Positions 8,362-41,432 of a DNA stretch of 64,000 bases are shown here, piece by piece. The stretch's first letter is position 1. Every line of letters begins with the position of its first letter. This stretch comes from a virus. Where the stretch lies: IMG/VR virus record IMGVR_UViG_3300042868_010004, positions 1-64,000 of that record; one strand, given 5' to 3'. The notes beneath the pieces are model-generated. The model made no database searches, was not told the origin of the DNA, and saw only the letters and a program-made list of their open reading frames with translations. Position numbers and translations under genes: made by a program.

Positions 8362-8390
8362 TTGACAGAAAAGATTCAATCTGAAAATCT
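8362..8390 (+). promoter_or_regulatory. Early-type promoter, leaderless start at 8397
   Basis: TTGACA (8362-8367), 17-bp spacer, AAATCT (8385-8390), then 6 nt to the ATG at 8397. The predicted +1 is at or next to the start codon. Confidence 0.5.
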
Positions 8391-8396
8391 CCTCCA

Positions 8397-8777
8397 ATGA
8401 ACAATAAATATCTACACCTTGCAATAGTCATTGCCGCCCTGTCTTTCCTATATTTCAAGTTTTACCGGAAGGAAACCCCGCCGCCCGCTCCCCCGCCTTC
8501 TGTCCGAATTGTCGAGCCGCCCCCGGCACCGCTTGTTGATACGGAATTTCTGATTGTAAATAAGGTTATGATTCCCGGAAAGATCATTAATACGAACGAA
8601 AAGTCAAGGTTCGATGGCCGGACAATTCAGAAAAATATTCCCCCGGTGCATTATTTGGTGATTCGCGGGACGGCGACCGGGAAGGAAAATGAAATTGAGG
8701 TTGGGCATATTGTTTTTAATGGAGTCCGCATCGGCGAGAGATATTCGGCGGAACAGATTCGGAAGATGGGAAATTAA
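8397..8777 (+). CDS. Membrane-anchored hypothetical protein, 126 aa
   Basis: The N-terminus carries one membrane helix (HLAIVIAALSFLYFKFY, about residues 7-23). A proline-rich stalk (TPPPAPPPS... EPPPAP) and a soluble beta-rich domain follow. The basic residues after the helix suggest the C-terminal domain is cytoplasmic if the positive-inside rule holds, although a periplasmic anchor is also possible. A promoter with its -10 only 6 nt upstream predicts a leaderless message. Function unknown. Confidence 0.7.
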   Translation: MNNKYLHLAIVIAALSFLYFKFYRKETPPPAPPPSVRIVEPPPAPLVDTEFLIVNKVMIPGKIINTNEKSRFDGRTIQKNIPPVHYLVIRGTATGKENEIEVGHIVFNGVRIGERYSAEQIRKMGN

Positions 8778-8787
8778 GAAAATTAAA

Positions 8788-9039
8788 ATGAAATACCGAA
8801 TACTCACACGCTGGCCGAAATCAAAACCGAGCTGGGGATACCTGCCGGAACACGATGGCGTAACGCTCACCCGCGCCCGCTCTATCGTGAATGGCGCGAA
8901 ACACTGGCAACCATGCGGACTACAGCAGCGCATTACGACAACCGGCGGGCGAATCATAAGCACGCATCGAAGCCGGATCGTCTCCCAGCAACGACAAGAC
9001 ATAATCCGCCGGACCTACCTTCCAGAGATCTTCACCTAA
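8788..9039 (+). CDS. Hypothetical protein, 83 aa
   Basis: Start at 8788 follows a short A-rich spacer after the preceding stop; an upstream in-frame ATG lies inside that gene. It begins MKYRILTRW, then Arg/Thr-rich sequence. Composition is somewhat unusual (many Arg, Thr, Gln) and the reading frame may not be conserved to its end. No family assigned. Confidence 0.5.
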   Translation: MKYRILTRWPKSKPSWGYLPEHDGVTLTRARSIVNGAKHWQPCGLQQRITTTGGRIISTHRSRIVSQQRQDIIRRTYLPEIFT

Positions 9040-9048
9040 TAATCCTTT

Positions 9049-9267
9049 ATGACAATTCTTGATATAATTAACAAGGCGGGGATGGAAAACATTAAAGTTC
9101 AGACCATGCACGGATCTCTCGTGAAAATGCATAAGAAAAAGCATGATACTGAATTAACTATTGCTACCGAGCATGAAAAAGGTGGAAGCGTTGCCCGCGA
9201 ATCAAACGGAATTGAAGGGGACTACCTCGGGCTGATCCTTTGGGTGCCTCGTAAGAATTTGAAATAA
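9049..9267 (+). CDS. Hypothetical protein, 72 aa
   Basis: Soluble protein with a His/Lys-rich segment (KMHKKKHDTELTIATEHEKG). Ends GLILWVPRKNLK. It lies 9 bp after the previous gene. No recognised domain. Confidence 0.6.
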   Translation: MTILDIINKAGMENIKVQTMHGSLVKMHKKKHDTELTIATEHEKGGSVARESNGIEGDYLGLILWVPRKNLK

Positions 9268-9279
9268 AAGGGTCTGCGT

Positions 9280-9474
9280 GTGATTATCTTCAAATATCAA
9301 ATAAAGAAGCTGCTGAAAGAAGCAGAAGAGAAAGGTTTCGCGCGGGGCTATGCGAAAGGCTGTTTGGATGGGTATCGAAATTGTGAGACTCATTCTCAAG
9401 AGGCTTTCCGGCATGCAATGGAGTTGTATAAACATGAGGTTCGGACTGGTCGCCGGGGGATTGGCAAGGAGTAA
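9280..9474 (+). CDS. Small helical protein, GTG start, 64 aa
   Basis: The frame begins with GTG at 9280; no ATG is available nearby. The product is almost entirely basic/acidic helix (YQIKKLLKEAEEKGFARGYA) with a Gly-x-x-x-Gly pattern. The next ATG starts 1 nt after its stop. Function unknown. Confidence 0.5.
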   Translation: MIIFKYQIKKLLKEAEEKGFARGYAKGCLDGYRNCETHSQEAFRHAMELYKHEVRTGRRGIGKE

Positions 9475-9475
9475 A

Positions 9476-10997: not shown

Positions 10998-11021
10998 TTT
11001 TTGTTCTTTTTTAGAATTTTT

Positions 11022-11113
11022 GCAAGCGTATGCCGCCGTGGTTCTAACGCGGATAAAGCTAATTGGAATGAGATAATTTCAAATGTGGGTTCGAGTCCCA
11101 CCGCTTTGCACCA
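11022..11113 (+). tRNA. Aberrant tRNA-like sequence, isotype uncertain (Arg-TCT-like)
   Basis: The T arm (GTGGG-TTCGAGT-CCCAC), encoded CCA and an acceptor stem (GCAAGCG with CGCTTTGC, one bulged T) are clear. An anticodon-like hairpin CCGTG-GTTCTAA-CGCGG would give TCT (Arg, AGA). It starts only 7 nt after the acceptor, leaving no room for a D arm, and 32 nt lie between it and the T arm. An alternative fold uses CCGC/GCGG as the D stem and leaves a poor GAG anticodon arm. It may be a decayed, rearranged or otherwise unusual tRNA. Confidence 0.45.
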
Positions 11114-11759: not shown

Positions 11760-12038
11760 ATGAATAACAATCTTCAAAACGACATAGAAAAATTAGAGCG
11801 CGAAAATAAAATCTTCCGCCGGTTGCTCGCCCTATCTTACTCCGGGGCCGGAAATTTATATCACGACGACGGCGAATTGCAAGACTCCTCCTCTGTGCCT
11901 TTAATTGATTTCCGGAGGGATTCCGCCGAGGAGATTGAAGATAAGATTCAGCAAAGGGGTCTGAATTGCTTGAAAGAAGAATTGTCTCGCAATCCGAATT
12001 TTTGGGAAGACCTGAAAAAACCGAAAATCCAGCCTTGA
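11760..12038 (+). CDS. Small coiled-coil phage protein, 92 aa
   Basis: Short coiled-coil start (DIEKLERENKIFRRLLALSY) followed by LYHDDGELQDSSSVPLIDFR, then a C-terminal helix. The DDGELQD-x(5-7)-P-x-IDF-x-RD pattern recurs in small phage proteins of unknown role. The A/T leader has no strong Shine-Dalgarno. Confidence 0.7.
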   Translation: MNNNLQNDIEKLERENKIFRRLLALSYSGAGNLYHDDGELQDSSSVPLIDFRRDSAEEIEDKIQQRGLNCLKEELSRNPNFWEDLKKPKIQP

Positions 12039-12063
12039 CGCGCCCGCAATCTCTTGTCAGTCT
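12035..12063 (+). promoter_or_regulatory. Early-type promoter, leaderless start at 12070
   Basis: TTGACG (12035-12040), 17-bp spacer, CAGTCT (12058-12063), then 6 nt (tccgat) to the ATG. The -35 overlaps the end of the preceding gene. Confidence 0.55.
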
Positions 12064-12069
12064 TCCGAT

Positions 12070-12321
12070 ATGAAATCCCTAGGATCATATAACTCCTTCC
12101 CCTACTATTTCTTAACGGATAATCCTTCCGACTTTTATGTATTCCGGCGGCTCTCAAAAGATGGCGGAGGAGAGTGCTCTGGTTGGATTAAAGGGCGGGC
12201 CGACCTCTGGCATAAACTTTTTAACATGAAAGACAAAACGGAATTCCGCGCCCTCTGTGATCGAATTTTTGAATGCCGTCCGAAGAATATTCTTTCGGGG
12301 CAGAATAGTTTTAAGGAATGA
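12070..12321 (+). CDS. Hypothetical protein, 83 aa
   Basis: Aromatic N-terminal half (YNSFPYYFLTDNPSDFYVFR), C-terminal FRALCDRIFECRPKN with two Cys. Start fixed by a promoter whose -10 ends 6 nt upstream. Function unknown. Confidence 0.65.
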   Translation: MKSLGSYNSFPYYFLTDNPSDFYVFRRLSKDGGGECSGWIKGRADLWHKLFNMKDKTEFRALCDRIFECRPKNILSGQNSFKE

Positions 12322-12346
12322 CAGACCGGAAGGAGAGATTTCCAAA

Positions 12347-12553
12347 ATGAAAACACTACAAATTAAGCGCTTGGCCCTCTTCTGCAATATAGATCGTTGG
12401 ACTTGGCTCGGCTATTCAGTTGCTAAAGACGGGCATAATATCATTGGGTCAATCTGTTTTTTGACTTTGGAGTTCGGTTTTGAATATGTCTGGAAAAACT
12501 TTGAAGAAAACGGAAAAAGAAAAAAATATTTTTGGAATTTGGCGAAAATTTAA
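12347..12553 (+). CDS. Hypothetical protein, 68 aa
   Basis: Start at 12347, with an AAGGAG about 10 nt upstream, is preferred to an in-frame upstream start that overlaps the previous gene. It has a hydrophobic middle (GHNIIGSICFLTLEFGF) that may be buried or membrane-associated. Family unknown. Confidence 0.6.
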   Translation: MKTLQIKRLALFCNIDRWTWLGYSVAKDGHNIIGSICFLTLEFGFEYVWKNFEENGKRKKYFWNLAKI

Positions 12554-12574
12554 AACAAGCCACAAAAATCTGTC

Positions 12575-12603
12575 TTGACTCCGACCCGCCTTCCATCCAG
12601 CCT
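12575..12603 (+). promoter_or_regulatory. Early-type promoter, leaderless start at 12610
   Basis: TTGACT (12575-12580), 17-bp spacer, CAGCCT (12598-12603), 6 nt to ATG 12610. Confidence 0.55.
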
Positions 12604-12609
12604 CTCCCC

Positions 12610-12984
12610 ATGTCCGAACGAACTTCATACGATCATCCCGCTCAAACCTACACCGATGTTTGCCCGGAGAATGGCGCTACAAAATTCGGCTTTCTGAATA
12701 AATGGGAGAAGACTAATTCATGGTTTTACAAGCTTCCGAATGGCGAATTTGGCTGTTATCCAGCGGCTCACTCTTCTATATTTGAGCCCGAACGGACGGA
12801 CTCCGGGTATGAGAAGACAACGGTTGCCGAAATACGGAATGGCCCACTTCTGGGCTTTTACTCCGAGAGATTCATGGTTAATTCAAACACGAAGATTGCT
12901 ATGAGGCAGATTGAACGGAGAATTCATAAGCTTCTTGCTGACAAGGAGTGGAAGAGAGAAAATGCAAGAAAGGCAATGATTTAG
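12610..12984 (+). CDS. Hypothetical protein, 124 aa
   Basis: Start at 12610 is fixed by the promoter 6 nt upstream; a longer frame to 12532 would begin inside the previous gene. Soluble, with a W-x-F-Y-x-L-P-x-G-x-F-G-C-Y segment (WFYKLPNGEFGCYP) and a C-terminal basic helix. No known family. Confidence 0.65.
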   Translation: MSERTSYDHPAQTYTDVCPENGATKFGFLNKWEKTNSWFYKLPNGEFGCYPAAHSSIFEPERTDSGYEKTTVAEIRNGPLLGFYSERFMVNSNTKIAMRQIERRIHKLLADKEWKRENARKAMI

Positions 12985-12986
12985 TC

Positions 12987-13015
12987 TTGACTCCCATTTG
13001 TCTTCCGTCCAGTCT
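12987..13015 (+). promoter_or_regulatory. Early-type promoter before 13037 operon
   Basis: TTGACT (12987-12992), 17-bp spacer, CAGTCT (13010-13015), then a 21-nt A/C-rich leader to ATG 13037. Confidence 0.55.
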
Positions 13016-13036
13016 CATACACGAACAAAACAAATA

Positions 13037-13135
13037 ATGAAAACAAAACAAATCGCATTCTGGCGGCATGATACATTTCCCTTTTGCCTTTGGGGTGAAA
13101 TTCTGAACGAAAATACAGGCTATGGAAATGAATGA
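13037..13135 (+). CDS. Small phage protein, 32 aa, possibly shortened
   Basis: ATG after an A/C-rich leader and a promoter. The sequence AFWRHDTFPFCLWGEI matches the start of a known small phage protein type (W-x-x-D-x-F-P-Y/F-x-L-x-G-x-V), which is usually longer. It ends at TGA 13133-13135 and overlaps the next ORF by 8 bp. It may be a truncated member. Confidence 0.5.
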   Translation: MKTKQIAFWRHDTFPFCLWGEILNENTGYGNE

Positions 13136-13241
13136 CGCAGACCGTTTTGTATGGATGGCCAAGCACTTCCAAATGTTTCGACTCGTAATTGGCGGGGCGA
13201 CACTGAAATATTTCGGACCAACGGGCGATATTGAATTATGA
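13128..13241 (+). CDS. Small protein, 37 aa
   Basis: Overlaps both neighbours. Begins NDADRFVWMAKHFQMF and contains a strand GATLKYFGPTGDIEL. The D-A-x-R-F-x-W start is typical of very small phage proteins of unknown role. The next gene overlaps by ATGA. Confidence 0.5.
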   Translation: MNDADRFVWMAKHFQMFRLVIGGATLKYFGPTGDIEL

Positions 13242-13414
13242 AATGGGAAGAATTACATAAACCAGACTTGTCAAAACCTGTTGCAAGAATTTCTAAAGAA
13301 GCCGCCGAACTTTTTGATGATGATTCGTTGGTTGCTCTTTTGATTTCTCGCGGTGTTAACATGAAAAGGAAAACAAAAATTGACGAACATGGGCAAGTGT
13401 TTTACCTTGAATGA
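13238..13414 (+). CDS. Small protein, 58 aa
   Basis: Four-base overlaps on both sides place it firmly in this operon. Helical centre (VARISKEAAELFDDDSLVAL) and a basic tail. No recognised domain. Confidence 0.6.
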   Translation: MKWEELHKPDLSKPVARISKEAAELFDDDSLVALLISRGVNMKRKTKIDEHGQVFYLE

Positions 13415-13908
13415 TGACCCCTCCGATTAAAATAATTCATGTCCGCCAACAAACGGATTATACATGTGGCGCGGCATCATTCGGAATGCTATTTGGTATT
13501 TCCGAGGCAGAGGCCGCTCGGCTGGTCCGAACGGATAAATCGGGAACCCATGTCGGAGATGTTATGAGCTGCCTGAGAGATAAAGAGATACCTCACGAAA
13601 TCATTAATCTGAATAAAGATTTCGAACTGGTAATCCCCGATCTGATTACGGTCTCTCTGAAATTCCCAGTGTATGTCTCTGGATTATTCAAAGACAGAAA
13701 ATTCAGTAAAGGCCGTTGCCGCGAGCGCCGCCATGCTTTTGTCTTGTCTGACAGATTGATTTACGATCCCGGAGAGGATCGAGAGATGACTTGGGAATCA
13801 TTTCGATCTGTTTTCAATCACTCTCTGACGATCAATTCGGCAATCATAATTGACATTGAATGCCCGAACTTTCTGAAAAACAGTCGAGAAAATCCTCTCG
13901 CTGCATGA
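13411..13908 (+). CDS. C39-like papain-fold cysteine peptidase
   Basis: A 165-residue protein with the peptidase C39-like active-site layout. The block QQTDYTCGAAS puts the nucleophile at Cys19, RRHAF gives a general base at about His108, and IYDPG gives an Asp at about 119 ordering the His. Families of this fold include bacteriocin-leader peptidases and BtrH/guanylate-cyclase-like thiol proteins. No transporter or leader peptide is nearby, so it is more likely a free-standing effector or anti-host peptidase. It is fourth in an overlapping operon. Fold call good; substrate unknown. Confidence 0.7.
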   Translation: MMTPPIKIIHVRQQTDYTCGAASFGMLFGISEAEAARLVRTDKSGTHVGDVMSCLRDKEIPHEIINLNKDFELVIPDLITVSLKFPVYVSGLFKDRKFSKGRCRERRHAFVLSDRLIYDPGEDREMTWESFRSVFNHSLTINSAIIIDIECPNFLKNSRENPLAA

Positions 13909-13923
13909 AAACCTAATATTATT

Positions 13924-14052
13924 TTGACCCCTGAATATTTATATCTGTTCGTCCTTGTTCTGATTCTTGGGAAAATGATCGGGCCAATAGACCAAAAAGA
14001 CAAAAATACAAAAAAAACGAGTATTCCTGAAAAATTCCGAAAAAACACTTGA
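13924..14052 (+). CDS. Possible 42-aa membrane peptide with TTG start
   Basis: Frame opened by TTG at 13924 and closed by a TGA that overlaps the next promoter's -35 box. It encodes one hydrophobic helix (YLYLFVLVLILGKMIG) then a Lys-rich tail. Only the helix and the otherwise empty gap support it. Confidence 0.3.
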   Translation: MTPEYLYLFVLVLILGKMIGPIDQKDKNTKKTSIPEKFRKNT

Positions 14053-14077
14053 CCAGTTCGGCTCCGTCTGTCAGTAT
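14049..14077 (+). promoter_or_regulatory. Early-type promoter before 14142
   Basis: TTGACC (14049-14054), 17-bp spacer, CAGTAT (14072-14077). It is followed by tgaatcgttagac and a long A/C-rich leader. Confidence 0.55.
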
Positions 14078-14141
14078 TTGAATCGTTAGACAAACACAAA
14101 CCAAAACACAAACCCGTTAGAATCAAATAAAAATCCGAAAA

Positions 14142-14441
14142 ATGAACGCCCCCGTAGTTCTAAATAGTAAAGTCAGCCCACGAGTGAATCACCAGAGCAA
14201 CATTTTGAGTGCCATGGACGAGATTGCCCGCGCGACAGAAAACTTGGAGAAGGTTAATTCCCGGTATCGTTATACAGTCATGGTCGGAAACAAATATGCC
14301 TTCCGCGATACTAATTCTCCAAAGCGTTACTCTTTGTCCGATAAGCCTTTTTACTTCTATCAAGAATCGCTGGCAAGGGATTGCCTCCGTAGTTTGCCGG
14401 GCCGACCTGTCTTTAATGCGGAGCTGATGACAAACAATTAG
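14142..14441 (+). CDS. Hypothetical protein, 99 aa
   Basis: Soluble, helix ILSAMDEIARATENLEKVNS, then a beta-rich part (YRYTVMVGNKYAFRD). About 65 nt of A/C-rich leader follow the promoter. Family unknown. Confidence 0.65.
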   Translation: MNAPVVLNSKVSPRVNHQSNILSAMDEIARATENLEKVNSRYRYTVMVGNKYAFRDTNSPKRYSLSDKPFYFYQESLARDCLRSLPGRPVFNAELMTNN

Positions 14442-14465
14442 ACAGTCCCCAAACGGTTCCGCGTT

Positions 14466-14693
14466 ATGAAGGTTTTATCTGTCAATCTATCCTATTTGGA
14501 AAATCTGAAATTCAAACTCAGAGAGCTGGAAGAGAATGGGTATTTTTTGTGGTTTGATTTTGAACTTTCTGACTGGTCCTGTTTTAAGGGTGAAAAATGG
14601 GAGGACTCGTTCGATATTTCCGGCTGGGTTGTCAGTGGGCAAGATAAAAATCAGGTGATAGAAACGGCTTTTCTCTATCTGTGGACGCGCTGA
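14466..14693 (+). CDS. Hypothetical protein, 75 aa
   Basis: Acidic, tryptophan-rich (WFDFELSDWSCFKGEKWEDS). No domain recognised. Confidence 0.6.
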   Translation: MKVLSVNLSYLENLKFKLRELEENGYFLWFDFELSDWSCFKGEKWEDSFDISGWVVSGQDKNQVIETAFLYLWTR

Positions 14694-14713
14694 ATCAGAG
14701 TTGATTGGCTTGT

Positions 14714-15127
14714 ATGAATACTCGAATATACAATCGCGCGATTGAAATTGCTACCGCCCTAAAAACAAAAAAGACCGGAAAATCCCATCATTGTTGTTTA
14801 ATTTATAGGAAAGGTAAAACAGTTGCAATAGGGATTAATGACTATACAAAGGCTCATAATTCAAATCGTTTTGGCCGATACGAGAATCATAAGGGTTATC
14901 TGACCGAATATAGAGCCTGTAGGCACGCGGAACTGTCTGCCGTTATCCGCTATGGCGAGGAAGATTTAAGTGATTGTGAAATGCTGGTGGTCCGAATTGA
15001 CAAAGATAATAATCCAACCCTTTCCCGCCCTTGTCCGAACTGCGCTCGCGTTGTTGGTGGACTAAATATTAAGAAGGTCTTCTATTCGGATTCGGATGGG
15101 AATTTTATTCAAGACGAAAGATTTTAA
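14714..15127 (+). CDS. Cytidine/dCMP deaminase-like zinc enzyme
   Basis: A 137-residue protein with the zinc-dependent deaminase signature. The motif CRHAELSAV has His71 as zinc ligand and Glu73 as catalytic acid, and SRPCPNCARV has Cys107 and Cys110 as the other zinc ligands. These enzymes deaminate cytosine in nucleosides, dCMP or nucleic acid; phages use dCMP deaminase to balance dTMP supply. The short length without extra allosteric segments fits a small CDA-like member, so the substrate is not settled. Start at ATG 14714 is preferred to an in-frame TTG nine bases upstream. Confidence 0.75.
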   Translation: MNTRIYNRAIEIATALKTKKTGKSHHCCLIYRKGKTVAIGINDYTKAHNSNRFGRYENHKGYLTEYRACRHAELSAVIRYGEEDLSDCEMLVVRIDKDNNPTLSRPCPNCARVVGGLNIKKVFYSDSDGNFIQDERF

Positions 15128-15328: not shown

Positions 15329-15356
15329 TTGACTCTTTCCAAAAGTCAGTCATAGT
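15329..15356 (+). promoter_or_regulatory. Early-type promoter, leaderless start at 15363
   Basis: TTGACT (15329-15334), 16-bp spacer, CATAGT (15351-15356), 6 nt to ATG 15363. Confidence 0.6.
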
Positions 15357-15362
15357 CCAGTC

Positions 15363-15989: not shown

Positions 15990-16017
15990 TTGACCTTACC
16001 CCCAAAAACGCAATCCT
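15990..16017 (+). promoter_or_regulatory. Early-type promoter, leaderless start at 16024
   Basis: TTGACC (15990-15995), 16-bp spacer, AATCCT (16012-16017), 6 nt (tccgtt) to ATG 16024. Confidence 0.5.
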
Positions 16018-16023
16018 TCCGTT

Positions 16024-16599
16024 ATGGAATCAGAAAGACAAGCTGCGTATAAAAATTATCTCCAAACCGAACACTGGAAGAATAAAAGACTGGAAGTTTT
16101 AAAAGAAAGGGGTAGTATTTGTGAAAAATGCAAAGAATGGGGTAATGAAATCCATCATTTGACCTATGAGAATATGTGGAACGAGCCCCTTTCCGATTTA
16201 CAGGTTTTATGCCGAGATTGTCATGAGGCAACCCACAGAGCTTTGACTTGTATTAAAATTTCTGATGGCGTAAAAAACTCCAAAACAAAGAATCTTGCCA
16301 AGCTAAAAATTAGCAGAGGTGCCTTAGCTCACTCTATATCATATAAACAATTGGAGTTTGTTTGCAAAAAATTAAACCAGTGGGACGGGGTTGGAATTTT
16401 TCGTAATGATACGCCCGAAACGGTTTTGGATATTATTCGATTTTCTTTTGACGAGGAAAATATAGAGGTAATTAGTGAGGCTGCTAAAATATTAGGCTTT
16501 AAAGATTATTTTCCTAAAAAATTAAAGCAGAAAAATCCGTCCAAACATAATAATCATTACAATGGCAGCCCAACGTATAAAACAGCGGCGAGTCTCTAG
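16024..16599 (+). CDS. HNH endonuclease
   Basis: A 191-residue protein whose first 75 residues are a zinc-bound HNH domain. It shows Cys33-x-x-Cys36, His44-His45 (EIHHLTYEN) as catalytic His pair, Asn/Asp-bearing LSDLQ, and Cys63-x-x-Cys66-His67 with a final His71. The pattern (Y-x-x-Y-L-x-x-x-H-W at the start, LCRDCHEATH at the end) is the common phage/prophage HNH type. The C-terminal half is helical and may bind DNA. Probably a free-standing homing or recombination nuclease. It has its own leaderless promoter. Confidence 0.8.
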   Translation: MESERQAAYKNYLQTEHWKNKRLEVLKERGSICEKCKEWGNEIHHLTYENMWNEPLSDLQVLCRDCHEATHRALTCIKISDGVKNSKTKNLAKLKISRGALAHSISYKQLEFVCKKLNQWDGVGIFRNDTPETVLDIIRFSFDEENIEVISEAAKILGFKDYFPKKLKQKNPSKHNNHYNGSPTYKTAASL

Positions 16600-32383: not shown

Positions 32384-32418
32384 AAACGGAAAAACTGTTT
32401 AAATTCCGAAAAACAGGG

Positions 32419-32447: not shown

Positions 32448-32486
32448 AGGGGAGTAATAAAAAACCAAACACGAAAATCTCCGAAA

Positions 32487-32678
32487 ATGAATCCTACCTT
32501 TTACAAAACATTCAAACGCTCCTGCACGAATTTCAAAACCTTCGCCAGCGCGCGAAAGATTACGGTTGATACCGGTTTGACTTATGAGCAGGCGCGGAAG
32601 TAATGCGAGGAATTCAATAAAAACCGCTCGGCGGCGCAAATCCGTAAAGGTACGATGATGGAATTCACGGCGGAATAA
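32487..32678 (+). pseudogene. Small gene interrupted by in-frame TAA
   Basis: ATG 32487 reads TFYKTFKRSCTNFKTFASAR, then KITVDTGLTYEQARK, then TAA at 32601-32603. The same frame continues with CEEFNKNRSAAQIRKGTMMEF and a stop at 32676-32678. Intact phage relatives have ARKI-x-V-x-x-GLTY-x-E/Q-A followed directly by x-M-C-x-x-FN-x-NR-T/S-x-x-Q-x-x-KGT-x-x-EFT. One sense codon has become TAA. The interruption at TAA argues against simple TGA recoding for the other broken genes. Confidence 0.7.
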
Positions 32679-32712
32679 CACAAATAATCTAAAAATAAAA
32701 AAGGATTGGATT

Positions 32713-33072
32713 ATGAATATCACAAAAGAAATGCTTCTGGAAACCGTTAAGACTCTTAAGGGATGGGGCTTCCGAGTTTTTATTAATGAGAATAACGATT
32801 GTTACTGTTATATATCTGACGGAAAACAAATTGGGTATATCGAGATTGATCGTCTCGGCGGATATAATTTTTCAACCAAACACAAAGAAAATAAACAGAC
32901 CGGCACAGGCTTTGCGATTGCTCGGAATGCGGTTTTGACAAAAGAAAATGCGGAAAAATGTTTTGCATTCGCGCCGGATTGGGTGCTTGGGCGTGATTTA
33001 CATACGGTTGAGAAATATACCTTGGACAAATACCTGAAAACCTATTGGGGGAAAAATCTTACAGAGGTTTGA
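32713..33072 (+). CDS. Hypothetical protein, 119 aa
   Basis: Preceded by GGA-rich leader (aaaggattggattATG). Beta-alpha protein (CYCYISDGKQIGYIEIDRLG, TGTGFAIARNAVLTKENAEK). These small phage proteins resemble each other around G-Y-x-x-x-x-R, but function is unknown. Confidence 0.65.
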   Translation: MNITKEMLLETVKTLKGWGFRVFINENNDCYCYISDGKQIGYIEIDRLGGYNFSTKHKENKQTGTGFAIARNAVLTKENAEKCFAFAPDWVLGRDLHTVEKYTLDKYLKTYWGKNLTEV

Positions 33073-33097
33073 AATAAAATTCAAATAAACCCCGACT

Positions 33098-33298
33098 ATG
33101 AAAAGCAATACCTTTGCGTTTGGTTTAATTTCCGGCGCGGCTCCCTCTGGTTTTAATTGGCAAGTGTTATTACATGCGGAGGGCGGCGGACTGGATCAAG
33201 TGATGAATTTTAAGACAACGGAGGGAATGAATGTTGCAATGCTCGGACTCGGATTGAAATTAAGTAAAGGCGGGGCCAGTTATTTGCCCGCGAATTAA
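33098..33298 (+). CDS. Small glycine-rich protein, 66 aa
   Basis: SNTFAFGLISGAAPSGFNWQ and GLGLKLSKGGASYL. Gly/Ser/Ala-rich and probably soluble. Unknown. Confidence 0.55.
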   Translation: MKSNTFAFGLISGAAPSGFNWQVLLHAEGGGLDQVMNFKTTEGMNVAMLGLGLKLSKGGASYLPAN

Positions 33299-33338
33299 AA
33301 AAATCTGAAAATAATTCTAAAATTCAGCTAGAATTGTC

Positions 33339-33366
33339 TTGCAACAGGGCGGGGCTTTGCTATGGT
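33339..33366 (+). promoter_or_regulatory. Early-type promoter before 33416
   Basis: TTGCAA (33339-33344), 16-bp spacer, TATGGT (33361-33366), then ttaggagtaacaag. Confidence 0.55.
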
Positions 33367-33415
33367 TTAGGAGTAACAAGCGAAACCAATCCGAAAACAC
33401 TCGAAAAACTCCGCC

Positions 33416-33877
33416 ATGACAATCTACGAACCAGTTATTTCCTACCGCAAAAAAGAAATTGAAGCGGTTGAATTGATAGATGCGGCCTCCGCTTACAAAC
33501 ATATTAAAGATTTCCTCTGGTCAATCCGCGATTTCAATCCAAATAAAGAATATGCGGTTTTGGTCGGGATGAATACTCGCGGGATTGTTAAATTCACCCG
33601 CATTCTTTCAATCGGGACCGACAATCAATGTTTGGTGACTCCGAGGGAAGTAATAAAGGAAATTCTTCTTTCGAATTGCAATTCTTTTATTCTGGCCCAT
33701 TCCCATCCTACGGGAGATCCCGGCCCTTCCTCCGCTGATAGTCAAATCACTCGGAAAATAAGAGAGGCGGCGGGCATTATGGATATTCAGTTCCGCGATC
33801 ATATTATTATCGGGCTGCCCGAAAATGATCCGGCGGGGCTTGGTTATTATTCTTATCGGGAGGCGGGTTTGATTTAA
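33416..33877 (+). CDS. radC-like: RadC-like JAB/JAMM metalloprotein
   Basis: A 153-residue protein with the RadC/JAMM zinc motif AHSHPTGDPGPSSAD (about 94-108): His95, His97 and Asp108 as ligands, Ser in the usual PSxxD position. This is the C-terminal RadC domain alone, without the helix-hairpin-helix N-terminus of full RadC. RadC proteins are found on many plasmids, phages and islands; their role is unresolved and the old repair assignment is in doubt. It has its own promoter. Confidence 0.85.
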   Translation: MTIYEPVISYRKKEIEAVELIDAASAYKHIKDFLWSIRDFNPNKEYAVLVGMNTRGIVKFTRILSIGTDNQCLVTPREVIKEILLSNCNSFILAHSHPTGDPGPSSADSQITRKIREAAGIMDIQFRDHIIIGLPENDPAGLGYYSYREAGLI

Positions 33878-33913
33878 ATCGGAAAATAAAATTCAGAATT
33901 CGGAATAAAAGCC

Positions 33914-33942
33914 TTGCAATGAAGCCGGGCGTCTGTCATTAT
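33914..33942 (+). promoter_or_regulatory. Early-type promoter before 33968
   Basis: TTGCAA (33914-33919), 17-bp spacer, CATTAT (33937-33942), then ctgaattgtaataac. Confidence 0.6.
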
Positions 33943-33967
33943 CTGAATTGTAATAACTGAAATACCA

Positions 33968-34234
33968 ATGAAATCCACCGAAATTAAGAAAATCCTGAAA
34001 GAAAAATTTAATCTTTCCGTCCGCGTGCATACAGGCGTGAGCAAAAATCCTTTCATAAGGGCAAGTCTTGGTTATGACAATCCGGTCAAATTCCCTTTGT
34101 CTTTCCGTCAAAAATGTTTGCGGGTTATTTATGGGGAGGATTGCACGTTTGCAGAAAACGGAAATGCCGGAAATGTCGCCCCGCATATGATTGCAATGCA
34201 TAGTCAGCAATGGGAAAAGGCTCTGGCGGACTGA
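33968..34234 (+). CDS. Hypothetical mobile-element-type protein, 88 aa
   Basis: Starts KSTEIKKILKEKFNLSVRVH; KS-x-E-I-K-K-x-L-K-E-K-F is frequent at the start of proteins from plasmids and conjugative elements that interact with large polyvalent proteins. The rest is basic with two Cys. Function unknown. Confidence 0.6.
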   Translation: MKSTEIKKILKEKFNLSVRVHTGVSKNPFIRASLGYDNPVKFPLSFRQKCLRVIYGEDCTFAENGNAGNVAPHMIAMHSQQWEKALAD

Positions 34235-34301
34235 AAAACAATTCCGAAATAAGCAAAAAATAAATCAGATCCCTGTATGAAAAACACTTCAATCTCTTGG
34301 C

Positions 34302-34341
34302 ATTAAAGAATGTAAAGGCAATTCCGCCTCCATTCTTTAAT
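34302..34341 (+). promoter_or_regulatory. Long hairpin directly upstream of zinc-ribbon gene
   Basis: Perfect 11-bp inverted repeat ATTAAAGAATG / CATTCTTTAAT with 18 nt between, which itself contains GGC/GCC. The 3' arm ends 2 nt before ATG 34344 and contains a -10-like CATTCT. There is no T tract after it, so it is more likely a translational or operator element than a terminator. Confidence 0.5.
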
Positions 34342-34343
34342 AT

Positions 34344-34538
34344 ATGCAAAACAAAAAAATCGTTGTCAAAGGTTTGGTCCGCTTGGAAATGACTTGCCCG
34401 CATTGCGAAAAAAAATCTTTCCAAAGCGTTTTGTCGAAAAATTTCACTTGGGATTGCCCTTGGTGTCAGAAGATCAATCACTTTGACTTTTCGCGCGGAT
34501 ATTCCGTGAAGATCGAAGATTTGAAGGGATTGGAATAA
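34344..34538 (+). CDS. Small zinc-ribbon protein, 64 aa
   Basis: Two Cys-x-x-Cys knuckles, TCPHCEKKS and DCPWCQKIN (about residues 17-45), form a typical treble-clef zinc ribbon in a 64-residue protein. Such proteins usually bind nucleic acid or RNA polymerase. Start lies at the foot of a long hairpin, so its translation may be controlled. A terminator follows. Confidence 0.75.
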   Translation: MQNKKIVVKGLVRLEMTCPHCEKKSFQSVLSKNFTWDCPWCQKINHFDFSRGYSVKIEDLKGLE

Positions 34539-34549
34539 AAATCACAGAT

Positions 34550-34583
34550 TGCCCGCTTTATTAATTTGAGGCGGGTATTTTTT
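34550..34583 (+). terminator. Intrinsic terminator
   Basis: Stem TGCCCGC with GCGGGTA around a 14-nt loop, followed by TTTTTT. Confidence 0.7.
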
Positions 34584-34615
34584 AGAAAAGTATTTTAAAA
34601 ACAGGATAAATTAGC

Positions 34616-34643
34616 TTGATTTCGTCCGGTTTCCTGTCATTGT
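34616..34643 (+). promoter_or_regulatory. Early-type promoter before 34668
   Basis: TTGATT (34616-34621), 16-bp spacer, CATTGT (34638-34643), then cttaaatgtaacaag. Last member before the gene-poor region. Confidence 0.55.
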
Positions 34644-34667
34644 CTTAAATGTAACAAGAACACTACC

Positions 34668-35018
34668 ATGAAAAACAAAAAAGATGATCGTAACGGCGAC
34701 TTTTCCGAGTTCGCCTCTTATATTGTTAATTCGTCAGAGCCTCGCTATATGCAACCAAACGAAAAACTCAGCCTGAAATATACAATCGCGCTCAGAGTTC
34801 GATCAATGGGTCCGACCGGCTTTCCCGGAATTAAATATGAGATCCGGCAACAGTATATCGGATCGGAAGGTCTGACTGACGAAATGATTGAAAAGGCAAT
34901 TACGGAAATGGTCCGCGATGGTATTATTGAACAGTATGATGATATGGCCGGGCAATATGTAAGCGGGCCGAATATGGAAAACATGGAACTGCCGGAAAAT
35001 AAGTTTGAATTGCGGTAA
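34668..35018 (+). CDS. Hypothetical protein, 116 aa
   Basis: Last gene of the left block, enclosed by its own promoter and terminator. LKYTIALRVRSMGPTGFPGI, then GLTDEMIEKAITEMVRDGII, which could be a winged-helix-like C-terminal part. A regulatory role is possible but unproved. Confidence 0.65.
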   Translation: MKNKKDDRNGDFSEFASYIVNSSEPRYMQPNEKLSLKYTIALRVRSMGPTGFPGIKYEIRQQYIGSEGLTDEMIEKAITEMVRDGIIEQYDDMAGQYVSGPNMENMELPENKFELR

Positions 35019-35026
35019 AAGTATTC

Positions 35027-35064
35027 TGCCCGCCTCTGGATTTAATTCTGGGGGCGGGTTTTTT
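35027..35064 (+). terminator. Intrinsic terminator closing the left block
   Basis: Stem GCCCGCCTC with GGGGGCGGGT around a 14-nt loop, then six T. Stem sequence is close to that at 34550 and 37842. Confidence 0.8.
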
Positions 35065-35726
35065 GTACCAAGACATAAAGATGGATAAATGAGAATTGGT
35101 CTCAATAACGGAATCAATTCGCGTTTTACCTTTCGAGTTTCTGATCGGGGGAATTAAATACAAACCTGCCTTTCGGGGGAATTAAGACGGGCGGCAATAC
35201 CGATAAAACAAATATAGAGGGCGGAAAACCCAAGGGAAAGCCCGACAGAATTGTTTTACTAAGAATGGTTCCTTATTAAGAATGATTCTAAATAACGATC
35301 CGGCTGAATGATTAAAGCCAAGGGTAAAAACATAAGGATTGATCGCCTAAATATAGGGCTGAAAAGGGGCTTGAAATGAGGTCAAAAGTCGGTCGGTTTT
35401 CTGTCAAATAAAAGGGGCGCGGCACCCTCTGAATGCATCGAAGATGCGGTGATTCAAAAGTTACGTAAATAGTTTAATGCAGAGGTGTTTGCGAAAGATT
35501 TGACGCCTCGCGTCAGCTCTTAAAAGTAATCCAGACAAGGCAATAAATAAAACAACCCCATAGAGATTAAACAGTAAAGAAGAACAAAGGAAATAAATAG
35601 ATAGAGAATGAAAGAACGATATAGGAGAGAATGAATGGAAACAAATAAAGAATGACAGAAGGTTTTTTTGTTTTAGGGATGGGGTTTACATGTCCTCTCC
35701 CCCTATCTCTCGCGCTTTTTTACAAA

Positions 35727-35818
35727 AACGAAAGCAAAACGAAAGCTCTTTAGCCTAAAACGAAAGGTTTTCGTAAGTTTTGAAAGGTTTTCGCCTTAAA
35801 ACGAAAGACAAACGAAAG
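35727..35818 (+). repeat. Iteron-like AACGAAAG cluster
   Basis: Exact AACGAAAG at 35727, 35738, 35759, 35800 and 35811, with a TGAAAGG variant between. The copy at 35759 extends into a CGAAA/TTTCG mini-hairpin. Another exact copy lies at 36589. Spacing is irregular (11, 21, 41, 11). Confidence 0.55.
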
Positions 35819-36131
35819 GTCGGCAAATAAAAACGCGCCGTATTTGAAAGTATATAGACACGAAAAAATTCCCAAAACTGCATGGGATAAATAAAAGTCT
35901 TTCTGAGTATTCCTATAGTTTTTCCTACATGATTCTAAATAAAATTCATTCCGCGTTTCCTTTGTTTCGTTTTGTTTTCAGTGTTTGAACACCCTTGCTT
36001 TTCAGTCGCTAGGCTTGATAGGGAAGGCCGAGGCCTTTAGAGGGAAGCGTCGCGTTAAATACTAGGGAGGTATGTTCGTGAAATGAGTTTACACAGAGCG
36101 GGAATAAAAGGGAAGGCGGGCAGAAAAACAA

Positions 36132-36263
36132 ATGAAAAAGTTTCAAATACTGGGGCGGGCCGCCCAAATAATAAAAATAAAAGTTGCAAATAAGAAAGAC
36201 GGAATGCCCGAAATATTAATGAATGAAGGCCAAATAAATAAAAGGCAAGCCGCTCTGGTTTAA
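36132..36263 (+). CDS. Possible 43-aa basic peptide
   Basis: ATG after gcagaaaaacaa, TAA at 36261-36263. Basic helical product (KKFQILGRAAQIIKIKVANK). The leader resembles those of real genes here, but there is no other support. Confidence 0.3.
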   Translation: MKKFQILGRAAQIIKIKVANKKDGMPEILMNEGQINKRQAALV

Positions 36264-36319
36264 TTATTTAGAAAGCCAAAGGCAGAAAAAGCCCGCCGCC
36301 CAATCTGTTTGTCAAGTAG

Positions 36320-36505
36320 GTAATTCTACGTATGATGGCGGGTAGCATGACAGAGCGGACCACGAAAGCAAGACAAAAATGCGGATCATCACTAAGTAAG
36401 ATTACGTATGAATTCCGTCTTGACTTTTTCTTATAGCAGGCTTGAAATGGTATCGTAGGGGACTGACTTTGAAAAAAGCCCGCTGACTGCCATACGTAGA
36501 ATTAC
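36320..36505. repeat. Inverted and direct copies of a TACGTATG motif
   Basis: GTAATTCTACGTATG at 36320-36334 is found as its exact reverse complement at 36491-36505. A related TAAGTAAGATTACGTATG lies at 36393-36410, and CTAAGTAGTTATACGTATG at 37887-37905. A working consensus is CTAAGTAnTTmTACGTATG. Arrangement suggests operator or initiator-binding sites. Confidence 0.6.
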
Positions 36506-36877
36506 TTAGATGGATTGCCTTGCAAGGTTTGCCGTTTTGGTTATTCGCGCGAGCGCGGGCATGCGTGCGCGTCACACTAAGAGAGACAACGAAAGCCCTA
36601 CCCAATCCCCCGGCCAGCACTCCGTTTTTTACGTTTGTTTTACACAAAAGAGGATTGACACAGTTTTAAGCCGGGCGCGCGTGACAATTTCATTTTCGCT
36701 CTGTTTTTTCTGCTTTCAGAAACTAGGGGTTTCCAACGGTTTACGGGATTGAAAAAACTATTTTTTAGAGAAACAAAACAAAGGCTTGTCAGGAAAACAA
36801 AGAAAGGTTTTTGTCTTCTCATCGAAAGGCAGCAAGCCCAACGGTAAAACAGCTCAAACACTCTTTCCCCTTCCTTC

Positions 36878-37021
36878 ATGTGCAACTCAAACAAAACCGG
36901 CCTTGCAATGTTCCTTTGGCACTTGGCCGCCGCCCTCGCAATTCTGGCAATGTTCGCAATTGCTGGCACTCTGGATTGCCCCCCCCCTTCAAGGTTTAAA
37001 CACCACAGGGTTTTATATTAA
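36878..37021 (+). CDS. Possible 47-aa membrane peptide
   Basis: ATG 36878 to TAA 37019-37021. One clear membrane helix (MFLWHLAAALAILAMFAIAG), followed by a short Pro/Arg/His tail that crosses a C9 run. Character fits a small phage membrane protein; the homopolymer would make the frame sensitive to sequencing error. Confidence 0.45.
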   Translation: MCNSNKTGLAMFLWHLAAALAILAMFAIAGTLDCPPPSRFKHHRVLY

Positions 37022-37137
37022 ACGTATAAACCCCTCTATGTTTCACCCTTGAAACAACCTAGTAAGGTAAACGACTAGTAAAGCCACAAAGGCACGTTTC
37101 CCAGTTCGCAAAACTACTGCATTAGAGCAATCCTACT

Positions 37138-37677
37138 ATGTCCGCCAATATCAAAGCCCTCGTCTCCGCCCTCGCCCTCGCCTCCAAAGCCGTGAAGGCC
37201 CTCCCCCCCGCCCCGTCCTTCGATCATGCCGCCCGACTCGCGATCATGCTCTCCGCCTTTGAGGGTATGCCCGACGCCGAAAAGAAAGCGCGCAATGCAA
37301 CTGACCGACTCAAGGAGCAGTTTGACGCCGCGCATGGTGATTCGTCCGAACGTATCACGCGCACGGTTTTGGCCGAGTTGGCCGAATCCCTCGGGGGGAT
37401 CGAAACTCTCGCCACCGTCGCCGGACGCATGGCCAAGGAAAGTCGGAGCGCGGGCAAGGTCAATGCGACTGCGACCCAGTGGCGCGCCGCCCTGACCGAG
37501 GAAGAGGGTTTTGATAAGAGCCTGCAAGGCTTGGCCGAGAAAGCCTCTGACATGCGCAAGGCTGGCAAGGCGTGGAGTGAGGTCGAAGAGAGTTTGAGCC
37601 TCTCCCCCGCCGCCCGCTCGCAACTCTACCTTGTCGCGAAGGAATTCACCGACCTTTTCCCCGCTAAAGCTGAGTAA
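37138..37677 (+). CDS. GC-rich helical protein, 179 aa, foreign-looking or highly expressed
   Basis: The gene is visibly much richer in G+C than its neighbours, with C/G-ending codons throughout (GCC, CTC, GCG). The product is Ala/Lys/Glu-rich and almost wholly helical (IKALVSALALASKAVKALPP; HAARLAIMLSAFEGMPDAEK) with no recognised domain. It stands alone between the gene-poor region and a terminator at 37842. Either recent acquisition or strong codon selection for high expression would explain the composition. Function unknown. Confidence 0.75.
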   Translation: MSANIKALVSALALASKAVKALPPAPSFDHAARLAIMLSAFEGMPDAEKKARNATDRLKEQFDAAHGDSSERITRTVLAELAESLGGIETLATVAGRMAKESRSAGKVNATATQWRAALTEEEGFDKSLQGLAEKASDMRKAGKAWSEVEESLSLSPAARSQLYLVAKEFTDLFPAKAE

Positions 37678-38223: not shown

Positions 38224-38742
38224 TTAATTCCCCCTTCTCTCCTCTCTTAACCACTGCTCCCTCTTAATCCTAATTTTCTTTAAATCGTTATAAATGGTTC
38301 GCGTGGTTGTCTTCATTTTCTTACTTATCAAATCTGGCGCGATCCCGCTTAGACTTAATTTGAAAACCTTCTCCTCTTTATCTGTTAAGGAAGGATAAAA
38401 CCCAATCTTAAAATCCGTTACATAGCTCTCCCAAGGGCTTTCGGCCAAACACCAAGAATCATTTTTTATATTACTAAGGCTGGATAAGTCAGCTTTTCTA
38501 AATTTTGAGCATCTTTGTCTTATGGTGTTTCTCATAAGGTTATAGCACAACCTATGAACCCAAGCGTAGAAATTTTTTGATTTAGATGGATCAAACTTTT
38601 CTTTTTTGTTCCAAATTCTAATCAGACAATCTTGTTTTATCTCTTGTATATCCCAATTAATATATCTCCCAAAAGTAAAGGCCCTAACATAGGTATCAAC
38701 CCTTTTAATTAATTCTGGACCAAAATTAAAAGAAGAACTCAT
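38224..38742 (-). CDS. ECF-like RNA polymerase sigma factor
   Basis: 172 residues from ATG at 38742 (MSSSFNFGPELIKRV). Region 2: INWDIQEIKQDCLIRIWNKK, FDPSKSKNFYAWVHRLCYNL, then NLMRNTIRQR. This follows the D-x-x-D/E-x-x-Q-E/D-x-x-x-R-I-W...F-x-x-W-x-x-R-x-x-x-N pattern of ECF sigma factors. Region 4: YPSLTDKEEKVFKLSLSGIA then ISKKMKTTTRTIYNDLKKIR, a HTH with -35 recognition helix. No anti-sigma gene is adjacent. Likely redirects host polymerase to phage middle or late promoters. A longer in-frame start is possible but runs through the upstream gene. Confidence 0.8.
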   Translation of the reverse strand: MSSSFNFGPELIKRVDTYVRAFTFGRYINWDIQEIKQDCLIRIWNKKEKFDPSKSKNFYAWVHRLCYNLMRNTIRQRCSKFRKADLSSLSNIKNDSWCLAESPWESYVTDFKIGFYPSLTDKEEKVFKLSLSGIAPDLISKKMKTTTRTIYNDLKKIRIKREQWLREERRGN

Positions 38743-38747
38743 TTTAT

Positions 38748-39176
38748 TTACAATCGGCCCTTCCGCCCACCACGAGCCGCCCCACCCCTCAGACCTCCAC
38801 TCCGAGTTGTCGCCGCCGGACAGACAGAATAAGACGAACTGAAGACGGGCTTGGAGTCTACTCTCGGATTGAAATCGGATTTGTTCGCCCGATAAGATTT
38901 CTGTAAGCAATTCAGCACAGGCATTGGCTCATTAACCGGATTATTTGAATTAATGCTCACCTGATTGCTCAGTCGGTCAATCTCCGCCCGCATCCGGGCA
39001 TTTTGTCTTTCAAGGGAAGAGGTTGAACGAAAGCTGATTCCACTCATACTTGCCCGCCCAAGCTTCAACCCTCCCGGAGAAAATCCAAGCAGATTGAGTT
39101 TGATTGTATGTGCGAGAGTAGTCCGGAGCGCGTTTCGGATCGGAGTGCGGAAATTTGGTAGACGGAAGAGATACAT
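38748..39176 (-). CDS. Hypothetical basic protein, 142 aa
   Basis: Five bases upstream of the sigma-like gene, same strand. Basic N-terminus (YLFRLPNFRTPIRNALRTTL), a short coiled coil (SLERQNARMRAEIDRLSNQV) and a Gly/Arg-rich tail (GGLRGGAARGGRKGRL) that may bind nucleic acid. Unknown; might modulate or accompany the sigma factor. Confidence 0.55.
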   Translation of the reverse strand: MYLFRLPNFRTPIRNALRTTLAHTIKLNLLGFSPGGLKLGRASMSGISFRSTSSLERQNARMRAEIDRLSNQVSINSNNPVNEPMPVLNCLQKSYRANKSDFNPRVDSKPVFSSSYSVCPAATTRSGGLRGGAARGGRKGRL

Positions 39177-39908: not shown

Positions 39909-40181
39909 TTACCGTCTAATCCCGGCCTGCTGTAAAATTTGCCGAGCATCTTCTACTTTCGACAACGGTCCAGAGGTTACCTGTCGGATTGTCTTATGCA
40001 GAGACCGAACCCCATCCTCGTATTTTTCAACATAGGCTCTCCCCATTTTCTCATAAAATACTTTTAGAAAGCGCTCTACGTCATATCCGAAAATTCCATT
40101 CAGAGCCCGAGCCTCGGATTCATTCAATTCTAAATGGACTTTCAGATCCATGTTTAATTCAATATGTTTTACAGTTGCCAT
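39909..40181 (-). CDS. Hypothetical phage protein, 90 aa
   Basis: HIELNMDLKVHLELNESEAR, then ALNGIFGYDVERFLKVFYEK and a C-terminal helix. Beta-alpha protein of a type common in phages (L-x-L-x-E-x-E-A-x-A-L). First of the - strand run read toward 39909; 3 bp separate it from the gene at 40185. Confidence 0.65.
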   Translation of the reverse strand: MATVKHIELNMDLKVHLELNESEARALNGIFGYDVERFLKVFYEKMGRAYVEKYEDGVRSLHKTIRQVTSGPLSKVEDARQILQQAGIRR

Positions 40182-40184
40182 AAT

Positions 40185-40553
40185 TTATAATCCTAATTGT
40201 TTTGCCTTTGCCGCAAACTTAGGGACGTTCTCCGTCATCCATAAGTAATATCGCAAATCATTTTCTTTAACCCACTCATACGTTTTATCAGCATACTTTC
40301 CATAACCAATTCCATCGGGCTTTACTTGCTCAGTTTGTTTACCCTCGGAGTTTTTCTTATCCCAAGGTGGAAATTTCAGTTTCTCAATCTGCCCAGTCCC
40401 ATTCAATAAGTCAGACTTGGTGATCGGTTTGATTGCCTTAAACTTCGGATCGTCCCGCCATTTATTCGCATTAACCTTTCTTTGCTCCTCCGAGATTTGT
40501 TCGGCGACATGTTCGTAAGCCTGAATATTTGTCTGATAGTCTTCGTATTCCAT
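40185..40553 (-). CDS. Hypothetical protein with C-terminal DUF3820-like part
   Basis: 122 residues. N-terminal charged region; the C-terminal GYGKYADKTYEWVKENDLRY then YLWMTENVP matches the short domain (G-K-x-x-x-K-T-x-E-x-V/W-x-x-x-D-x-x-Y-x-x-W) seen in DUF3820 and the C-termini of exodeoxyribonuclease X-like phage proteins. That part may bind nucleic acid. No nuclease domain here. Confidence 0.6.
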   Translation of the reverse strand: MEYEDYQTNIQAYEHVAEQISEEQRKVNANKWRDDPKFKAIKPITKSDLLNGTGQIEKLKFPPWDKKNSEGKQTEQVKPDGIGYGKYADKTYEWVKENDLRYYLWMTENVPKFAAKAKQLGL

Positions 40554-40557
40554 TGGG

Positions 40558-40935
40558 TCAGCGCGCCCCTAATTGATTTAATTTCTTCTCAACCCTCACC
40601 CAATACTTTTCCGTAGATTGTTTCTTCCAGCCATTCGGACCCCCATTCATGATTCTCGCGAAATCCTCATTCGTTGGTTTTCTTCCGAGTCGTCTCATTG
40701 TCCCGTAATGCCCAAGATATTTTCGCGCCATCTCTTTTGACTTTTCCGAATCCCACCGATCTTCATATGTGTAGTATGGCGGGCCGTAAATCCGATTCAA
40801 ATCATCCACGAATATCCGTCGAATTTGCAAAACCCCGGCGGCATCCTCTGCCCGATTGTATGCCCGTGGGTTGCCCGAACTTTCAACCTGAATGAGCGCG
40901 GCGAGAAGAATTGCGGGAATGACTGGATCGGACAT
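40558..40935 (-). CDS. Lysozyme-fold muralytic protein (transglycosylase-like)
   Basis: 125 residues. The opening AALIQVESSGNPRAYN puts a catalytic Glu at about 18 in the V-E-S-S-G-N-P context of lytic transglycosylases. AAGVLQIRR (G-x-x-Q-I) and IMNGGPNGWKK near the end complete the fold. There is no signal peptide, so it would need the adjacent membrane protein (40936) or host export to reach peptidoglycan. Probable endolysin. Confidence 0.75.
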   Translation of the reverse strand: MSDPVIPAILLAALIQVESSGNPRAYNRAEDAAGVLQIRRIFVDDLNRIYGPPYYTYEDRWDSEKSKEMARKYLGHYGTMRRLGRKPTNEDFARIMNGGPNGWKKQSTEKYWVRVEKKLNQLGAR

Positions 40936-41139
40936 TCAGACGCCCTTCCTGATTAATGCAATTTTCTGACGAAACCATTCGCCGATTTCTTTCTGCGGTG
41001 CAACCCCGATTGTTGCCGCCGCCAAGACAAATGGAGCCATTCCAACAAAAACGCAAAAGGCGTAAAGAAGAACTATCAGACTGATTGGCAACATAATAAT
41101 CAAATTTAAAAAAATATCTAGTTGATGTTTTGTTTTCAT
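40936..41139 (-). CDS. Two-helix membrane protein, holin candidate
   Basis: 67 residues with hydrophobic helices at about 9-32 (FLNLIIMLPISLIVLLYAFC) and 33-46 (FVGMAPFVLAAATIGVA), then a basic tail. It directly abuts the muralytic gene on its upstream side. Size, topology and position fit a holin; sequence alone does not prove it. Confidence 0.6.
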   Translation of the reverse strand: MKTKHQLDIFLNLIIMLPISLIVLLYAFCVFVGMAPFVLAAATIGVAPQKEIGEWFRQKIALIRKGV

Positions 41140-41142
41140 ATT

Positions 41143-41397
41143 TTACTCCTTAGCTCGTTTTTCTAAACTGATTGCATTTTCTTTCCAGTTTACGAACTCC
41201 GAATCATTAAATTCCGGCCACCAATATATAGTATGAAACGGAACGTAAATCCTTCCATCATGAGAGCCTTCTACCAGTTCGCCGACTGGAGACTGGACGA
41301 TAGCGTGGCCATTTACGATTTTGTATTTGATTGGACGGATCTTCCCCTCTTCTTTGAAGAATCCTTTCTTCCAGTCGGATTTAAATAAATTAAACAT
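41143..41397 (-). CDS. Hypothetical protein, 84 aa
   Basis: The start at 41397 (MFNLFKSDWKKGFFKEE) is fixed by a TTGACA promoter on this strand whose -10 ends 6 nt upstream. An alternative start at 41445 would lie upstream of that promoter. Aromatic C-terminal half (IYWWPEFNDSEFVNWK). Unknown. Confidence 0.65.
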   Translation of the reverse strand: MFNLFKSDWKKGFFKEEGKIRPIKYKIVNGHAIVQSPVGELVEGSHDGRIYVPFHTIYWWPEFNDSEFVNWKENAISLEKRAKE

Positions 41398-41403
41398 ATA
41401 GCG

Positions 41404-41432
41404 AGAAAACCATCTTTCCTCGAACTTGTCAA
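41404..41432 (-). promoter_or_regulatory. Early-type promoter on - strand, leaderless start at 41397
   Basis: Read on the - strand: TTGACA (41432-41427), 17-bp spacer, TTTTCT (41409-41404), 6 nt to the ATG at 41397. Confidence 0.6.

Follow-up and report, generated by a model that had tools for sequence, protein, structure and literature searches.

A group of related, large uncultured phages, first noticed in a stretch of viral DNA covering positions 1-64,000 (the window) of the 191,122-bp IMG/VR virus record IMGVR_UViG_3300042868_010004, places TTGAC-type promoters directly against ATG start codons in one fixed register. Sequence comparison demonstrates the register of -35 box, -10 box and ATG, a precision beyond chance, the repetition of the layout in relatives and the lack of a Shine-Dalgarno (SD) signal. 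These features suggest that the clade very probably uses leaderless mRNAs as a main mode of expression, the predicted +1 being the A of the ATG. The record is that of a tailed phage with rII genes; RIIA and RIIB, PhoH and a large terminase, and perhaps a portal protein, are encoded in the window. About 1-42 kb is an early-type region crowded with small open reading frames (ORFs), followed by the structural genes; "early" refers here to promoter type and gene position only.

In the window the distance from TTGAC to ATG is 35 nt at the starts 8397, 12070, 12610, 23155, 29333 and 41397, and 34 nt at 15363 and 16024. A hexamer of the form xAnnnT ends 6 nt before the ATG at six of these starts and 7 nt before it at 29333. 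The predicted leaderless promoters on the plus strand are TTGACA-N17-AAATCT-N6 (8362-8396; ORF 8397-8777, 126 amino acids), TTGACG-N17-CAGTCT-N6 (12035-12069; 83 amino acids), TTGACT-N17-CAGCCT-N6 (12575-12609; 124 amino acids), TTGACT-N16-CATAGT-N6 (15329-15362; 204 amino acids, lipoprotein-like with a weak SHD1 match), TTGACC-N16-AATCCT-N6 (15990-16023; 191 amino acids), TTGACA-N17-CAATGT-N6 (23120-23154; 65 amino acids) and TTGACT-N16-CATTCT-N7 (29298-29332; 87 amino acids). On the minus strand, TTGACA lies 35 nt before ATG 41397 (41398-41432; 84 amino acids) with a poor -10 (TTTTCT). The first-pass annotation had described -10 boxes at 6 nt (7 at 29333) for eight genes, and this holds for seven of them; at 41397 there is no xAnnnT hexamer and only the -35 distance fits. 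It had also set apart two starts having a -10-like hexamer without a good -35, and both are as described: a perfect TACTCT-N6 before ATG 27894 (27882-27893, plus strand) and CATTCT ending 7 nt before ATG 34344, neither with TTGAC. Two sites can be added to its list. One is clear, with TTGACA (8079)-N17-TAGTTT-N6 (8079-8113, plus strand) adjoining ATG 8114 (ORF 8114-8332, 72 amino acids), and the other is less secure, with TTGACG and TACCTT-N5 (13380-13413, plus strand) before ATG 13414 (164 amino acids), where a further ATG occurs at 13411. The product of 16024-16599 (plus strand) looks by eye like an HNH endonuclease (CEKC..HHLTYENMWNEP..CRDCH) and had no Pfam match at 0.01.

Over the whole record, TTGAC is found 35 nt before an ATG that opens an ORF of at least 50 amino acids 14 times against 1.63 expected (P 2e-9). 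The spacing, which had been called too uniform for chance, does stand out: no other pentamer/distance pair in the record is as extreme, and the pattern is repeated in relatives. Of the ATGs located 34-36 nt from TTGAC, 70% begin an ORF of at least 50 amino acids compared with 25% elsewhere (P 1.5e-8), and GTG, TTG and CTG show no enrichment at these distances. Within the window, 12 TTGAC-ATG pairs (ORFs of at least 60 amino acids) have a spacing of 34-36 nt where 1.8 would be expected (P 5e-7).

Several observations weigh against the leaderless reading. Another 3-nt bin in the window reached a count of 9, probably because of clumping of nested ATGs, and the window alone is for this reason only moderately strong; the full record and the relatives therefore carry the case. 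The -10 boxes of the window phage are weak and degenerate, with only xAnnnT in common. The coding model did not predict genes at the starts 8114, 12070, 13414 and 41397, several ORFs are short, and searches with three early proteins gave no close relatives in which the exact sites could be compared. The degenerate -10 boxes and modest counts within the window are what might be expected if TTGAC and AT-rich hexamers met ATGs by accident in an AT-rich genome. Such an accident deserves almost no credence given the rank of the TTGAC/35 pair in the full record, the P values of 1e-11 to 1e-63 in the relatives that carry the signal and the absence of the signal in T4; for the clade, chance alignment is already refuted.

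The relatives were found through their terminase (37-46% identity), and five further phage records carry the signal: G002, G003, G008, G010 and G016. In G003 (179 kb) TTGAC-ATG pairs number 52, 17, 4 and 3 at 33, 34, 35 and 36 nt, where about 1.3 are expected each, and 0-4 thereafter; the 52 sites at exactly 33 nt correspond to a P of about 1e-63. In G008 (203 kb) the counts are 14, 48, 5 and 4 at 34, 35, 36 and 37 nt against 4.0 expected (P 1e-34 at 35 nt). G002 has 15 pairs at 35 nt where 0.4 are expected, and the counts are 24 against 1.9 expected in G010 and 9 against 0.24 in G016. G008 and G010 have near-identical stretches in common and are hence not independent counts. The -10 box is TGTGNTATAGT in G003, ending 5 nt before the ATG, and TGNTANNNT in G002 and G008, ending 6 nt before it. 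The position before the start codon is a pyrimidine in 77-81% of the clade sites, and the number of sites in the register reaches about 70 per genome. In G002, positions 19070-36683 hold dense arrays on both strands of genes that are mostly 45-120 amino acids long, each with a TTGAC-35-ATG promoter of its own. No TTGAC signal was seen in four short contigs from the terminase region (G005, G012, G014, G015), as expected if these hold late genes only, nor in a distant 166-kb record (G017, 23% identity, 63% GC).

The shape of these distributions bears on whether the promoters have simply drifted against the ATG through genome compaction in phages of an SD-free host, with leaders that are short rather than absent and leaderlessness as an unselected by-product. 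The genome is without an SD signal and its genes are densely packed (238 calls in the record), as compaction would have it. However, the predicted lengths in G003 and G008 peak sharply instead of tailing off, with little above background for leaders of 2-14 nt, and leaders of 14-57 nt form a class of their own in the window phage, which makes this explanation unlikely. Since the bins past the spike are near background, leaders of about 0-1 nt are predicted, as opposed to leaders that are simply short.

Transcription might also start where predicted while translation begins at a codon further downstream, so that the RNAs would have leaders after all. The shortness of some ORFs would agree with this. 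On the other hand, ATG is specifically enriched at the predicted +1 and is followed by long ORFs. It is the only candidate start codon enriched overall at the offset in the window phage and its relatives, and 70-88% of the offset ATGs in these six phages open long ORFs compared with 15-31% elsewhere (in G003 88% against 25%, P 3e-29). In five homologous pairs between the phages (34-64% identity) the layout is kept while the spacers have diverged, and three of the five leaderless pairs align from residue 1. A downstream start is thus very unlikely.

A second class of early promoters in the window allows the transcription start to be calibrated internally. TTGAC and xAnnnT are common to both classes, and in this second class the start codon follows 14-57 nt further on. 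GTAA (also GAAA, GTAG or GTTA) is found at TTGAC+35 or +36, the -10 ends 7 nt (once 6) ahead of it, and the leaders are A/C-rich, mostly with 70-90% A+C. Five such promoters on the plus strand are TTGAC with TATTGT and a GTAAC start at TTGAC+36 (18883-18940; 22-nt A/C-rich leader, ATG 18941), one with a GTAACA start at +35 (20355-20406; 17-nt leader, ATG 20407), TATTGT-N7-GTAAAT (26698-26749; 17-nt leader, ATG 26750), TATTGT-N7-GTAATC (28151-28222; 37-nt leader, ATG 28223) and TACAGT-N7-GTAATA (31579-31645; 32-nt leader, ATG 31646). The purine-start element of the GTAA type in the leader class and the ATG in the leaderless class coincide within one nucleotide, both at TTGAC+35 or +36, and the transcription start is thereby calibrated without assumptions about a foreign polymerase. 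The division into leaderless and A/C-leader early genes that had been proposed from the window is present as described; no comparable leader-class peak was found in the relatives.

SD pentamers (of AAGGAGGTGA) are near background in the window phage, with 22 of 238 genes compared with 16 at a control position, and other phages in the clade gave 16 against 10 and 20 against 14. The named genes had been thought to leave no room for an SD; the signal is indeed near background, but its lack is genome-wide and nothing special to these genes. T4 served as a negative control and had SD pentamers at 40 of 108 genes against 6 at the control position, with SD motifs as the top signals and no TTGAC peak before ATG. 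The Thermus phage phiYS40, in which most middle and late mRNAs are described as leaderless (PMC3594737), was the positive control and has TTGAC 35 nt before ATG 9 times against 0.55 expected, in addition to SD motifs. The prediction that transcription starts at or within a base of the ATG agrees with the GTAA calibration, the single-base recurrence in relatives, the peak in phiYS40 and its absence in T4.

During early infection the host RNA polymerase, directed by the main host sigma factor, would initiate at these sigma-70-type promoters on the A of the start codon and produce leaderless mRNAs, while in the window phage a second early promoter set would add an A/C-rich leader of 14-57 nt beginning with GTAA. 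Ribosomes, probably as 70S particles with fMet-tRNA, would then directly recognise the 5'-terminal AUG, a mode of recognition established in bacteria (PMC9031893). None of the CAU tRNAs in the window phage and its relatives has the GGG/CCC anticodon stem seen in initiators, which discounts a phage-borne initiator tRNA, and no homologue of IF3 or bS21 was found in five phages. The phages therefore probably rely on unmodified host initiation.

A bacterium that is poor in SD and efficient in translating leaderless mRNA would be expected as the host. TTGAC/-10 promoters, little SD and tolerance of leaderless mRNA fit Verrucomicrobiota, which is a plausible best guess; no direct link of the phages to a host was found. 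The product of the gene at 15363 has a weak match to SHD1, a domain associated with the Verrucomicrobiota superphylum, and points in the same direction; no relatives of this SHD1-like lipoprotein were found in plasmids or viral contigs. Several members of Verrucomicrobiota are SD-scarce (PMC10783764), and in Akkermansia muciniphila Cappable-seq showed -35/-10 promoters and about 10% leaderless start sites (PMC4782308). Bacteroidota were considered as hosts with the same layout and gave no clear enrichment (about 85 against 75 with a +12-nt control, among the matches listed in 41 genomes). The GDP-mannose dehydratase of the phage had a sole match in the genome collection, to a Flavobacteriaceae metagenome-assembled genome (53%), and the gene is mobile and uninformative on the host. 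When terminase, DNA polymerase and RIIA were compared with cultured phages by tblastn, only distant matches appeared, below about 33% identity among the matches listed.

A register at the start codon is also suggested for the late genes. In the structural region of the window phage, the most strongly enriched hexamer is GTGTAA (10 against 0.38 expected), and four copies lie 15-16 nt before an ATG. Two of these are in the window on the plus strand: GTGTAAAC at 55019-55033, beginning 15 nt before ATG 55034 (647 amino acids, weak portal match), and GTGTAATC at 57160-57174, beginning 15 nt before ATG 57175 (547 amino acids). In G008, 16 ATGs have GTGTA 14 nt ahead of them where 0.96 would be expected (P 1e-14), and most of these copies read GTGTAAT. 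The late motif can be summarised as GTGTAATA, 14-15 nt ahead of ATGs. In T4 late promoters a gap of about 5 nt separates the 8-mer from +1, and by analogy the late start would fall at the AUG or within about two bases of it.

The window also encodes a phage sigma factor (38224-38910, minus strand) with Sigma70_r2 over the cut-off at 38512-38688 and a match to the PHROG annotation RNA polymerase / late sigma factor. This protein may be the factor that reads GTGTAATA-type promoters later in infection, many of them presumably with a start on the AUG or no more than about two bases from it. Sigma70_r2 matches were found in all five phages tested, over the cut-off in three, and a second, weaker match lies at 104592-104693 of the full record. 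About 2 kb without a called gene (around 35000-37200) separates the early-type region from the sigma-factor region. The T4 late system resembles this one in having a short motif without a -35 before late genes (TATAAATA) and a phage-encoded sigma (gp55), and the window sigma is related to late sigma PHROGs. The T4-type motif TATAAATA was not the one enriched here; the late motif is GTGTAA(T/A) and stands 14-15 nt before the ATG, whereas T4 genes use SD leaders.

Other features concern RNA genes and a possible insert. Three tRNAs were called in the window, and an Rfam scan of it returned tRNAs only. Between two of the called tRNAs, 11021-11112 (plus strand) is tRNA-like with a CCA end (GCAAGCG...CGCTTTGCACCA), was called by neither ARAGORN nor Rfam, and is possibly a fourth tRNA, degenerate or with a long variable arm. 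G008 has a tmRNA gene by ARAGORN (L061, 8618-9001) and, downstream of it, 17 clustered tRNAs (L061-L062). An ORF of 1102 amino acids at 11775-15083 (plus strand) in L004 has an internal LAGLIDADG_3 domain and is possibly an intein or a homing insert.

Leaderless genes and one leaderless phage are already known, and the clade-wide register is the addition. The known phage, phiYS40, is likewise a large lytic phage with many mRNAs without leaders and the TTGAC-35-ATG signature; its promoters abut the AUG at many genes, as they do in the present clade. In contrast, other genes of phiYS40 have a clear SD signal and the clade has almost none, and sites in the clade number as many as about 70 per genome, with the late motif GTGTAATA at the AUG. 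The strategy of phiYS40 also includes a shift of host IF2/IF3 levels during infection. The two are compared by layout and not by sequence kinship. Leaderless genes in Deinococcus-Thermus have a "-10 region adjacent to ORF", with TANNNT a few bases before the start codon (PMC12340547; PMC3160421). The short distance from -10 box to start codon, giving a leaderless mRNA, is shared with the clade, but there it is a feature of host genomes beside SD genes, and here one of phage genomes with a strong TTGAC -35 and no SD. Akkermansia has -35/-10 promoters, start sites at annotated starts and scarce SD, and differs in being a cellular genome. No description was found, in literature covering few subscription journals, of a clade that has this register at as many as about 70 genes per genome, lacks SD and sets both promoter classes on the AUG.

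With moderate confidence, the phages can be seen as a widespread clade of about 180-200 kb without SD, in which leaderless mRNAs would be a major mode for early genes under the host sigma and for late genes under a phage sigma at GTGTAATA, with +1 on the AUG to the exact base in both, and the window phage as an intermediate with a second A/C-leader class. In such phages, SD-dependent gene callers may put starts in the wrong place and overlook small genes; the register of promoter and ATG is usable for correcting gene calls and may aid host prediction. Leaderless translation in bacteria has often been studied gene by gene, whereas this clade shares one exact promoter-AUG register across dozens of genes. 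In the window phage, leaderless and A/C-leader genes under the same promoter type constitute an internal comparison. The clade offers a natural way to ask whether 5'-terminal AUGs are preferred by the ribosomes of an SD-poor host, and how a phage can favour its own mRNAs without SD.

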